Shown here: positions 50,195 to 60,710 of the stretch, piece by piece
Position numbering within the stretch: the stretch's first letter is position 1
How the letters are laid out: each line of letters starts with the position of its first letter
Source of the DNA: Brevundimonas diminuta
GTDB taxonomy: Bacteria; Pseudomonadota; Alphaproteobacteria; Caulobacterales; Caulobacteraceae
NCBI RefSeq assembly: GCF_022654015.1
Contig: NZ_CP073063.1
Coordinates: 1,302,001 to 1,366,000 of the forward strand
DNA: 64,000 bases
Direction: 5' to 3'
The notes under the pieces: generated by a model
Database searches by the model: none
Told to the model about the DNA's origin: nothing
What the model saw: the letters and a program-made list of their open reading frames with translations, nothing else
Position numbers and translations under genes: made by a program

Positions 50195-50245
50195 GTCATC
50201 GTTTCAAAAAAAGAAAACGGTAACGCTGGACCAAACATCGTTATG

Positions 50246-50260
50246 GAACGTATCAAGAAC
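50246..50260 (+). promoter_or_regulatory. LexA box immediately before the radical-SAM gene
   Basis: GAACGTATCAAGAAC is a perfect GAAC-N7-GAAC, the reverse complement of the alphaproteobacterial LexA operator GTTC-N7-GTTC. It ends one base before the ATG of the radical-SAM gene at 50262. This position would block transcription start or early elongation. Confidence 0.8.
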
Positions 50261-50261
50261 G

Positions 50262-51500
50262 ATGGCTCGTCTCGATCTGCGTCGAAAACTTTCTGTCTTG
50301 GCTGACGCCGCCAAGTATGACGCCTCCTGTTCGTCGTCCGGAACGTCGAAACGAAACTCCGTCGGCGGCAAGGGGATCGGCTCGACCGAGGGGATGGGCA
50401 TCTGTCACGCCTATACACCAGACGGTCGGTGCATCAGTCTGCTCAAGATCCTGCTGACCAACTTCTGCATCTACGATTGCGCCTATTGCATCAATCGCGT
50501 CTCGTCGAATGTGGAGCGCGCGCGGTTCGATGTCGATGAGGTCGTCGACCTGACGCTCAACTTCTACAAACGCAACTATATCGAGGGCCTGTTTCTGTCG
50601 TCGGGCATCATTCGATCCGGCGACTATACGATGGAGCAGCTGGTCCTGGTGGCCAAGACGCTGCGGGAAGTCCACGATTTCCGGGGCTATATTCATCTGA
50701 AGCTGATCCCGGAGGCGGATCCGAAGCTGGTGGAGATGGCGGGGCTGTATGCCGATCGCCTGTCGGCCAATATCGAACTTCCGCGCGACGAGGCGCTGGC
50801 GCGACTGGCGCCGCAAAAGGACGTCGGGGTCATCAAGAAGGCGATGAGCCAGGTGCGTCTTGGCGTAGAGGCGGCCAAGCCGGCCAAACGTGAAAAGATC
50901 AAACCGCCGAAGTTCGCGCCGGGCGGCCAGAGCACCCAGCTGATCATCGGCGCCGACGGCGCGCCGGACACGGAAATCCTGGATCGCAGCGCCTCGCTTT
51001 ACGGCGGTTACGGCCTGCGCCGAGTCTATTATTCGGCATTCAGCCCGATCCCGGATTCGAGTTCGATCCTGCCGCTGTCCAAGCCGCCGCTGATGCGCGA
51101 GCATCGGCTGTATCAGGCCGATTGGCTGATGCGGTTCTATGGCTTCTCCGCGCCGGAGATCGGCGAGGGCGCATCGAACGGCATGCTCGATCTGGCGGTC
51201 GACCCCAAACTGGCCTGGGCGCTGAACAAGCGCGAGCAGTTTCCCGTCGATGTGAACCGTGCTCCGCGCGAGATGCTGCTGCGTGTGCCGGGGCTGGGCG
51301 TGAAGGCGGTGGACCGGATCGTCGCGGTGCGCCGCTATCGGACCCTGCGGCTAGAGGATGTCGGACGGCTGACGCGATCGGTGGCCAAGATTCGGCCCTT
51401 CATCACGGCGTTGGATTGGACGCCAGGCGGTCTGACGGATGCGGCGGACCTGAAGGCGCGCATGACCAGCCGCAGGCCCGAGCAGTTGAGCCTGTTGTGA
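50262..51500 (+). CDS. Putative DNA modification/repair radical SAM protein (TIGR03916-like)
   Basis: A 412-residue protein. The radical SAM cluster is Cys69, Cys73 and Cys76 (TNFCIYDCAYCINR), preceded by ILADAAKYDASC-like and ICHAYTPDGRCISLLKILL segments that mark the TIGR03916 family. A spore-photoproduct-lyase-like barrel follows, and the C-terminus has helix-hairpin-helix repeats (VDVNRAPREMLLRVPGLGVKAVDRIVAVRRY), which bind DNA. No substrate has been shown. The ATG is directly behind a LexA box, so SOS control is likely. Its stop overlaps the UdgX-fusion start (TGATG). Confidence 0.9.
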   Translation: MARLDLRRKLSVLADAAKYDASCSSSGTSKRNSVGGKGIGSTEGMGICHAYTPDGRCISLLKILLTNFCIYDCAYCINRVSSNVERARFDVDEVVDLTLNFYKRNYIEGLFLSSGIIRSGDYTMEQLVLVAKTLREVHDFRGYIHLKLIPEADPKLVEMAGLYADRLSANIELPRDEALARLAPQKDVGVIKKAMSQVRLGVEAAKPAKREKIKPPKFAPGGQSTQLIIGADGAPDTEILDRSASLYGGYGLRRVYYSAFSPIPDSSSILPLSKPPLMREHRLYQADWLMRFYGFSAPEIGEGASNGMLDLAVDPKLAWALNKREQFPVDVNRAPREMLLRVPGLGVKAVDRIVAVRRYRTLRLEDVGRLTRSVAKIRPFITALDWTPGGLTDAADLKARMTSRRPEQLSLL

Positions 51501-52954
51501 TGGCGGTGGCGACGCTGGACGGTGAGACCGTCTTCGACGGCTGGCGGAAGGCGGCGCGCGCGTTTCGCTTGGCGGGTGTGGAGCCCGCGGCGGCGCAGTT
51601 CGTCGTGGCGGGGGCGGTGGAACAGGGCGGGCTGTTCGATCACCCGATTGCCGAAGAGGCGTCGCCGATGCCGGATGACCGCAGAGCTTTCACCGTCCCG
51701 AAAGAATTCGTGGACCTGGCTCAGAACCTGATCCTGCATCGATCCGCTGACCGTTTCGATCTGATGTATCGGCTGCTGTGGCGACTGAAGGATGAGTCGG
51801 ACCTGATGAAGGTCATTTCGGACCGGGACGTCGCCGACGCGCTGGAGCGGGTCAAGAACGTCAGCCGCGCCTCGCACAAGATGAAGGCCTTCGTTCGCTT
51901 TCGCCAGGTGCATGACGATCTGGGCGAGGCCTGGGTGGCGTGGTTCGAGCCGCCGCATCGGGTTTTGGAAAGGACCGCGCCCTTTTTCCAACGGCGGTTC
52001 ACGACCATGCGCTGGTCGATCCTGACGCCGGATGGTTCGGCGTTCTGGGATGGCGACGCCCTTCGGTTCGGGCCGCCCGCCACCCGCGACATGGCGCCGG
52101 CCGAAGACGAGATCGAGGATTTCTGGAAGACCTATTACGCCTCGACCTTCAATCCCGCGCGGCTGAAGGTGAAGACGATGCAGGGCGAGATGGCCAAGTC
52201 CTATTGGAAGAACCTGCCGGAAGCCGCCTTGATCCCGGAACTGGTCGCGGCTTCGTCGGTTCGGACCGAGACCATGGTCGCTGCGCCGTCGCCTCAGCCC
52301 AATCCGCGTTTCGCGCGCGCCGTCGCGCCGGACCTCCATTTGGCGCGTCCCGACGCCGAGGCCGTGCCCGAAAACCTCGACGATGTCGCCGGCGGCGTTC
52401 AGGCCTGCCGCCGTTGCCCGCTTTACCGCGACGCGACGCAGGGCGTGTGCGGAGAGGGGCCGAAGTCGGCGCGTCTGATGATCGTCGGCGAACAGCCGGG
52501 CGATCAGGAGGATTTGGCAGGCCGCGCCTTCATCGGGCCGGCGGGGCAGGTGCTGAACGCCGCCCTGGCCGAGGCCGGCATTGATCGATCCGACGTTTAT
52601 GTCACCAACGCGGTCAAGCACTTCAAACACGAGCCGCGCGGCAAGCGTCGCCTGCACAAGACGCCGAACGCGGGCGAGGTTCAGGCCTGCCGCTGGTGGC
52701 TGGACTCGGAGCGAAGGCTGATCAAGCCGCAAGTCGTGCTGGCCCTTGGCGCGACGGCGGGTCTGGCGTTGCTGGGTCGAAAGCCGGCCGTGATGCAGGA
52801 ACGTGGCGCGCCGATCGACCTGAGCGATGGATCGACCGCCGTACTGACGGTTCACCCGTCCTATTTGTTGCGTCTGCCGGACGAAGCCGCGAAGTCCGAG
52901 GCGAGACGGTTGTTCATTGAGGATCTGGCGGCCGTGCAACGTCGTATGAGGTGA
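51500..52954 (+). CDS. DUF4130-UdgX fusion, uracil-DNA binding/glycosylase-like protein
   Basis: A 484-residue two-domain protein starting at the ATG at 51500. Residues 1-250 match the DUF4130/TIGR03915 family, with AFVRFRQV, ERTAPFFQRRF and MRWSILTPDGSAFWDG. Residues 290-484 are a UdgX-type uracil-DNA glycosylase: CRRCPLYRDATQ, motif A GEQPGDQEDLAGRAFIGPAGQVLN, the loop KRRLH with His386, and HPSYLLR. In Mycobacterium UdgX that His forms a covalent bond with the abasic sugar after uracil release. Four-Cys iron-sulphur binding is expected. It is coupled to the upstream radical-SAM gene. Confidence 0.9.
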   Translation: MAVATLDGETVFDGWRKAARAFRLAGVEPAAAQFVVAGAVEQGGLFDHPIAEEASPMPDDRRAFTVPKEFVDLAQNLILHRSADRFDLMYRLLWRLKDESDLMKVISDRDVADALERVKNVSRASHKMKAFVRFRQVHDDLGEAWVAWFEPPHRVLERTAPFFQRRFTTMRWSILTPDGSAFWDGDALRFGPPATRDMAPAEDEIEDFWKTYYASTFNPARLKVKTMQGEMAKSYWKNLPEAALIPELVAASSVRTETMVAAPSPQPNPRFARAVAPDLHLARPDAEAVPENLDDVAGGVQACRRCPLYRDATQGVCGEGPKSARLMIVGEQPGDQEDLAGRAFIGPAGQVLNAALAEAGIDRSDVYVTNAVKHFKHEPRGKRRLHKTPNAGEVQACRWWLDSERRLIKPQVVLALGATAGLALLGRKPAVMQERGAPIDLSDGSTAVLTVHPSYLLRLPDEAAKSEARRLFIEDLAAVQRRMR

Positions 52955-60695: not shown

Positions 60696-60710
60696 GAACA
60701 ATGTAGGAAC
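60696..60710 (-). promoter_or_regulatory. LexA box of uvrA
   Basis: On the minus strand GTTCCTACATTGTTC is a perfect GTTC-N7-GTTC. It lies 81 bp before the uvrA ATG and past the truncated-globin stop. uvrA is a known LexA target in many bacteria. Confidence 0.9.

Follow-up and report, generated by a model that had tools for sequence, protein, structure and literature searches.

A window of 64,000 nucleotides from Brevundimonas diminuta, positions 1302001-1366000 of a 3.2-Mb single contig, contains a two-gene chromosomal operon composed of a radical S-adenosylmethionine (SAM) gene and a gene for a DUF4130-UdgX fusion, with a LexA-type operator at its head. The operator sequence is conserved in relatives, the radical-SAM gene and DUF4130 form a constant pair, and the UdgX half possesses an intact active site. 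Our favoured reading, which we judge about evenly balanced between right and wrong, is that the unit is induced by DNA damage, that the radical-SAM protein, together with DUF4130, changes a damaged base or reverses the damage, and that the fused UdgX excises uracil and holds the abasic site covalently. The main features are:

50246..50260, + strand: LexA-type operator GAAC-N7-GAAC, GAACGTATCAAGAAC; a perfect box, in either orientation, is present at 142 of 149 distinct alphaproteobacterial loci
50262..51500, + strand: radical-SAM protein of family TIGR03916 (412 aa), scoring 550.8 bits, with the cut-off at 343.5
51500..52954, + strand: DUF4130-UdgX fusion (484 aa), TIGR03915 and TIGR03914 both over cut-off

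A first-pass annotation, made from the letters of this stretch, had placed the operator one base before the radical-SAM gene and had let the stop of that gene overlap the start of the fusion. Both details are correct: base 50261 alone separates the box from the ATG at 50262, and in the TGATG at 51498-51502 the TGA of the radical-SAM gene and the ATG of the fusion have one base in common. The radical-SAM protein is 99% identical to a protein of Brevundimonas vesicularis.

The LexA-type operator

A lone GAAC-N7-GAAC box is little evidence on its own. The window contains 7 occurrences of the pattern where 1.89 are expected, a count reached in 1 of 100 shuffles; the whole genome contains 120, and 58 of the pattern reversed. 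We take the operator to be real because its place is conserved in relatives, not because of the single match in the window; as relatives keep the box at the start of the gene, a chance origin of the window box is ruled out.

The survey of operators comprised 156 radical-SAM loci, 155 of them distinct (125 from searches for relatives and within the class, 26 from a set of Pseudomonadota genomes, and 5 plasmid loci), each scanned over the 100 nt before the start and 15 nt into the gene. The sample leans to near relatives (one search contributed the best 80 of 590) and its loci are not independent. A perfect box is present in 142 of the 155 distinct loci, 126 times in the orientation of the window and 16 times inverted (GTTC-N7-GTTC); six further loci possess a box with one mismatch and seven lack it. 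Six of these seven are non-alphaproteobacterial (L138-L142, L208), the seventh is L112. The 149 alphaproteobacterial loci include L061, titled merely 'Pseudomonadota bacterium'. The inverted boxes of six loci (L226-L231) are located 93-97 nt upstream of the start. Counted in the forward orientation only, 130 loci yielded 110 perfect boxes, 5 with one mismatch and 15 boxless loci, against a background of 67 in 23,658 windows of equal size; since 8 of the 10 alphaproteobacterial loci among these 15 bear the same box inverted, both orientations were counted in the final survey.

With the operator at the promoter and conserved in relatives, and with lexA and recA of the same genome boxed as well, the LexA-type operator named in the first pass stands. 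Because operator and gene pair recur across many Alphaproteobacteria, induction by DNA damage is predicted. The window box has a G after each GAAC, and 93 of 110 relatives have an A after the first; the LexA consensus of Caulobacter crescentus also has A after GAAC (PMC13384398). Given the two G, affinity of the window box for LexA could be lower than in relatives. A second box of the window, GAACAATGTAGGAAC at 60696-60710, is probably a chance occurrence, because the longest sense open reading frame (ORF) starting right after it has 46 aa.

The genome's own LexA (TIGR00498, 181.7 bits) has two boxes before its gene. Fifteen boxes with an AT-rich spacer were chosen by eye among the first 100 of the 120 genome boxes; they also precede RecA, two ImuA-like genes and a DinB-like gene, and in the remaining 10 of the 15 stretches no gene was nameable by eye. 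Both ImuA-like ORFs stay below the cut-off of 150 for NF033429 (56.5 and 65 bits) and match no Pfam family; the DinB-like ORF reaches 99.5 bits and is cut by the end of its stretch. Under the favoured reading, RecA-driven cleavage of LexA would release the operon along with lexA, recA and the imuA-like and dinB-like genes. The Caulobacter SOS regulon was reportedly described by da Rocha in 2008.

Predicted promoter and leaderless start

50227..50232, + strand: predicted -35 element TGGACC, -35 to -30 from the ATG, matching the place of T-35 and G-33 in relatives
50251..50256, + strand: predicted -10 element TATCAA, within the spacer of the operator; among the 37 representatives whose box is at -17, all have the T and 36 the A

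In the window, the two predicted hexamers are 18 bp apart. In 58 loci of the forward-only survey, the first base of the box is at exactly -17 from the start codon; these are here reduced to one representative per close group (n=37). These representatives share T-35 (33/37), G-33 (33/37), C-31 (22/37), T-12 (37/37) and A-11 (36/37), and all other non-box columns from -45 on carry less than 0.5 bit, save for -18 (0.68) and -2 (0.88), which flank the box. The resulting -35/-10 pair is 17 bp apart, its -10 lies within the operator spacer, and the transcript start would fall at the ATG.

Nine representatives form a second group, in which the box is at -29; there the spacer contains TA in 1 of 9, and TA is present at -12 from the ATG in 7 of 9, which speaks against the spacer TA of the first group being LexA's preference alone. 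The -35 match of this second group tracks the ATG (3.33 of 6) and not the box (2.22), which is located between the two hexamers; in a plain profile its -10 peak is small (2.89 of 6 vs 2.67 at the next place). When the best promoter-like -10 is picked in each of 80 representatives, its first base is at -12 in 33 of them; after shuffling, no single place is reached more than 4 times, a comparison that is flattered because shuffling destroys the box too. Shine-Dalgarno-like 4-mers between -16 and -5 are found in 7/37, 0/9 and 0/3 representatives of three box groups; locus L040 has GGAGG at -7 to -3, just beyond the stretch scored. The promoter elements of 42 of the 80 representatives, with the box at -17 or -29, are spaced for a start at the ATG, and a leaderless mRNA is predicted for these two groups. 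Leaderless mRNAs are common in C. crescentus, with 375, or 9.6% of coding sequences (PMC4117421). LexA bound on or beside the -10 of such a promoter would shut it.

The pair of radical SAM and DUF4130

Profile cut-offs for TIGR03916 and TIGR03915 were applied to 398 Pseudomonadota genomes, of which 84 possess TIGR03916 and 87 possess TIGR03915. DUF4130 is located downstream on the same contig and strand in all 84 TIGR03916 genomes, in 79 of them within 600 nt; with kinship ignored, 18.4 genomes with both families would be expected at random, vs the 84 observed. The stable pairing assumed in the first pass is upheld by this survey, which showed no loss of it in most related genomes.

A sample of the class (289 genomes) contains TIGR03916 in 18, DUF4130 in 18 and both in 17 genomes. 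The exceptions are G105, with a partial radical-SAM match, and G241, whose DUF4130 lies beside a radical-SAM remnant of 65.6 bits; this remnant (L126) is C-terminal, perhaps a sign of a decaying pair. UdgX directly follows DUF4130 in 10 of the 18 DUF4130 genomes (G000, G004, G032, G072, G099, G154, G204, G263, G321 and G340), and in the other eight no over-cut-off UdgX is found beside it (G093, G221, G234, G241, G256, G310, G318 and G329). Only G093 and G318 among these eight possess an over-cut-off UdgX elsewhere. A tblastn search with the UdgX half against seven of the eight loci found none, and six of the seven still bear a LexA-type box. The Bacteroides, Acinetobacter and Acetoanaerobium plasmid copies also have DUF4130 without UdgX. 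UdgX as the core of the system is therefore rejected on the strength of the 8 of 18 genomes, and the earlier suggestion that places uracil handling by a covalent intermediate at the heart of the unit is not supported in that form: the core is radical SAM plus DUF4130, with UdgX as an optional add-on. Among the 110 nearest loci, the fusion is found in 107; the misses are L085 and L096, with 688 and 114 nt to the contig end, and L040. The Caulobacter vibrioides (crescentus) control genome gives a signal for all three families, and for TIGR03915 it is over the cut-off.

51524..52225, + strand: DUF4130 domain (TIGR03915, residues 9-242), 201 bits against a cut-off of 112.25; Pfam PF13566, 129.8 bits

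Eleven residues of DUF4130 are kept in 103 of 103 fusions, namely H126, R133, E150, R166, D203, W209, Y212, R221, Y235, W236 and E241. After 12 stand-alone relatives (about 20% identity) are added, R133, E150, R166, W209, Y212, R221, Y235, W236 and E241 are still invariant; the DUF4130 of Acinetobacter, outside those 12, has no glutamate equivalent to E150. Conserved H126, R133, E150, R166 and D203 resemble an active site. In a rival reading, the radical-SAM protein acts on a protein: it would modify or activate DUF4130, and DUF4130 would be the real DNA-acting enzyme. The constant one-to-one pairing in 84 of 84 genomes would suit such a maturase and its client, but the possible C-terminal helix-hairpin-helix of the radical-SAM protein (weak matches) would point to DNA, and we regard a protein substrate as unlikely. 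In the favoured reading, both proteins would act on a base lesion.

In seven of the 107 paired loci (L061, L078, L089, L090, L105, L109 and L110), a hemerythrin HHE-domain gene (PF01814, 51.8-65.7 bits) is inserted between the radical-SAM gene and the fusion; inserts were looked for in gaps of more than 250 nt. Such an oxygen-binding or iron protein, encoded next to an enzyme whose type is oxygen-sensitive, may protect the radical-SAM cluster. A cytidine/dCMP deaminase-like gene (PF00383, 43 bits) occupies the same place, before a UdgX fusion, in L043:6865-7506.

The radical-SAM protein

50466..50489, + strand: radical-SAM motif CIYDCAYC (C69, C73, C76; residues 69-76), in 156 of 156 aligned homologues
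50328..50330, + strand: codon of C23, first of three conserved cysteines outside the CX3CX2C motif; aligned homologues keep it in 155 of 156 cases
50403..50432, + strand: codons of C48 to C57, the two further extra conserved cysteines, in 155 of 156 aligned homologues
51243..51335, + strand: possible helix-hairpin-helix, residues 328-358, Pfam HHH_3 20.3 bits against a cut-off of 27

The protein combines the CX3CX2C motif with a TIGR03916 score well over its cut-off; the general Pfam Radical_SAM model gives 28.6 bits, just below its cut-off of 29.5. A [4Fe-4S] cluster on C69, C73 and C76 would, with SAM, generate a 5'-deoxyadenosyl radical. C23, C48 and C57 may provide a thiol or the site of a second cluster. 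From the first-pass description of this protein, CIYDCAYC is confirmed at residues 69-76, and the C-terminal helix-hairpin-helix 'repeats' shrink to the single HHH_3 match listed above; the profile matches to ComEA and RuvA, with an E-value of 0.055 at best, are weak. The C-terminal helices may bind DNA, and the protein would act with DUF4130 on a base lesion.

The best fold matches listed are lipoyl synthase, HydE and biotin synthase, with 12-16% identity to the window protein. These three enzymes have different substrates. Direct reversal of a UV photoproduct, after the manner of spore photoproduct lyase (SPL), has been brought into the vicinity of this family by the literature: DUF4130 is described as an enzyme with a predicted part in mutagenesis and a link to SOS, found in association with SplB-like radical-SAM proteins (photolyases) and uracil-DNA glycosylases (UDGs) (PMC3765255), and SplB is SOS-regulated in several species (PMC8565304). 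An SPL-like enzyme is nevertheless improbable in our view, given the fold matches above; no SPL chain is among the fold and profile matches listed, an absence that excludes nothing. The three extra cysteines are not known as an SPL feature.

The UdgX domain

52229..52936, + strand: UdgX domain (TIGR03914, residues 244-479), 315.1 bits, over cut-off
52487..52501, + strand: UdgX motif A GEQPG (residues 330-334); E331 and Q332 in 103 of 103 relatives longer than 400 aa
52655..52657, + strand: codon of H386 in the KRRLH R-loop, aligned to H109 of Mycobacterium smegmatis UdgX (MsmUdgX), in 103 of 103 relatives longer than 400 aa

Motif A GEQPGDQED and the KRRLH with His386, both reported in the first pass, are present at residues 330-338 and 382-386. 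By the definition of UdgX residues in PMC10359453, all seven named residues are found in the window protein, H386 included: E331 and Q332 of motif A (UdgX E52 and Q53), R384 and H386 of the R-loop (R107 and H109; 103/103 relatives), N370 (N91; 103/103), and H452 and R458 (H178 and R184; 102/103 with one gap), the last two in the motif B HPS..R. The predicted fold superposes on MsmUdgX, and the matches listed in fold searches with the fusion protein are UDG throughout or nearly so. Chains of MsmUdgX in the PDB are single-domain and 205-229 residues long, whereas the UdgX described here follows DUF4130 within one protein, and a radical-SAM gene is its partner. By strong analogy with its family, H386 would become bonded to the deoxyribose C1' on the departure of uracil, and would thereby shield the site from breakage.

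If radical SAM and DUF4130 undid the covalent UdgX-DNA adducts, it would be clear why a suicidal glycosylase shares a protein with DUF4130 and is expressed along with a radical-SAM enzyme. Such a division of labour is quite improbable, however, with 8 of 18 DUF4130 genomes lacking an adjacent over-cut-off UdgX and merely two of these eight, G093 and G318, having one elsewhere.

Another LexA-type box of the window's own genome is located at G000:C1:1131721-1131735 (L196, L262), between a divergent ImuA-like gene and a gene of the SRAP family; the whole ORF of the latter matches PF02586 with 58.3 bits, and a 118-aa piece alone matched no family. The gene of this SRAP/HMCES-type protein adjoins that box, at a locus different from that of UdgX. 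SRAP/HMCES and UdgX are both predicted covalent shields of abasic sites, with unrelated fold and chemistry. As both genes lie near LexA-type boxes, the genome may induce two predicted trapping proteins for abasic sites at the same time.

Gene neighbourhood and mobile elements

A Pfam scan of three neighbours found FlgK- and Flagellin_C-type flagellar genes upstream and an MlaE permease downstream. An anti-phage role against uracil-containing or modified phage DNA would fit the patchy distribution of the unit, and enzymes of the UDG family can attack uracil-DNA phages; it is very improbable all the same, as PADLOC models match neither protein, the LexA box ties the unit to the SOS regulon and the three scanned neighbours are flagellar or MlaE.

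The plasmid collection contains 158 records with TIGR03916 relatives, 58 of them Phaeobacter and 142 typed as non-mobilizable. Ten 'phage' records contain radical-SAM relatives of 48-54% identity, eight of these being unannotated human-fecal contigs; the relatives may represent prophage or stray bacterial DNA.

Weighing the reading

Several observations weigh against a damage-induced unit of radical SAM, DUF4130 and UdgX as drawn here. Regarding the pair, three of the 398 genomes possess DUF4130 without TIGR03916 (G525, G541 and G607), and Jiella pelagia (L040) has the radical-SAM gene with a LexA-type box and no DUF4130 or UdgX within 5 kb downstream. The pair is also patchy, TIGR03916 being present in 31 of 37 genomes of the same genus (self included) and in 6 of 24 others of the order. 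Regarding the chemistry, the DUF4130 sequence profile had no match in the PDB, the helix-hairpin-helix match of the radical-SAM protein falls below the Pfam cut-off, and that this protein has a DNA substrate is something we infer. Regarding the leaderless start, no promoter came out of a strict sigma-70 scan of the window, and eight representatives with inverted boxes are unclear in their spacing. Where the box sits in another register (24 representatives), TA is seen at -12 once and in the spacer 17 times, so that the spacer TA may partly reflect LexA's own preference. A leaderless start in all lineages is ruled out; it fits the groups with the box at -17 and -29 only.

A fuller version of the favoured reading, which we put forward as possible and rather doubtful, makes radical SAM and DUF4130 an uncharacterised two-protein SOS enzyme for DNA lesions with a second metal site at C23, C48 and C57. 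Its leaderless promoter would be shut by LexA in a large share of lineages, and many of them would have added UdgX as a covalent clamp that shields the abasic sites arising from uracil excision.

Relation to known systems

The gene pairing and its LexA control are already known, from the names of NCBIfam families and from PMC8565304 and PMC3765255. The NCBIfam set rSAM_link_UDG, SAM_7_link_chp and UDG_fam_dom (TIGR03916, TIGR03915 and TIGR03914) states the link in its names; all three domains are present here over their curated cut-offs, and no architectural difference is seen. We take COG4277 to be the TIGR03916 protein. The COG1573-COG4277 operon is LexA-controlled in Bacteroidetes, with earlier reports from Verrucomicrobia and Alphaproteobacteria cited in the same paper (PMC8565304), and likewise comprises two genes with a UDG partner; LexA motifs in Bacteroidetes differ from the GAAC-N7-GAAC of Brevundimonas. 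The LexA table for S. venezuelae includes an entry under the name 'Radical SAM protein' (PMC9380542). A literature search, with most subscription journals out of reach, found neither a biochemical study of TIGR03916 or DUF4130 nor a paper that defines a substrate. Within the literature searched, the additions of the present analysis are the promoter layout, the optional nature of UdgX and the extra cysteines, the first and last of which go beyond the NCBIfam set.

The data narrow the question to radical SAM and DUF4130 first, with UdgX as an add-on and with C23, C48 and C57 as sites of interest. If the favoured reading is true, a radical-SAM enzyme found almost always with DUF4130, and LexA-boxed in most of the alphaproteobacterial loci examined, would represent a new type of DNA repair chemistry, and the predicted leaderless promoter would have its -10 overlapped or flanked by a LexA operator whose register varies.

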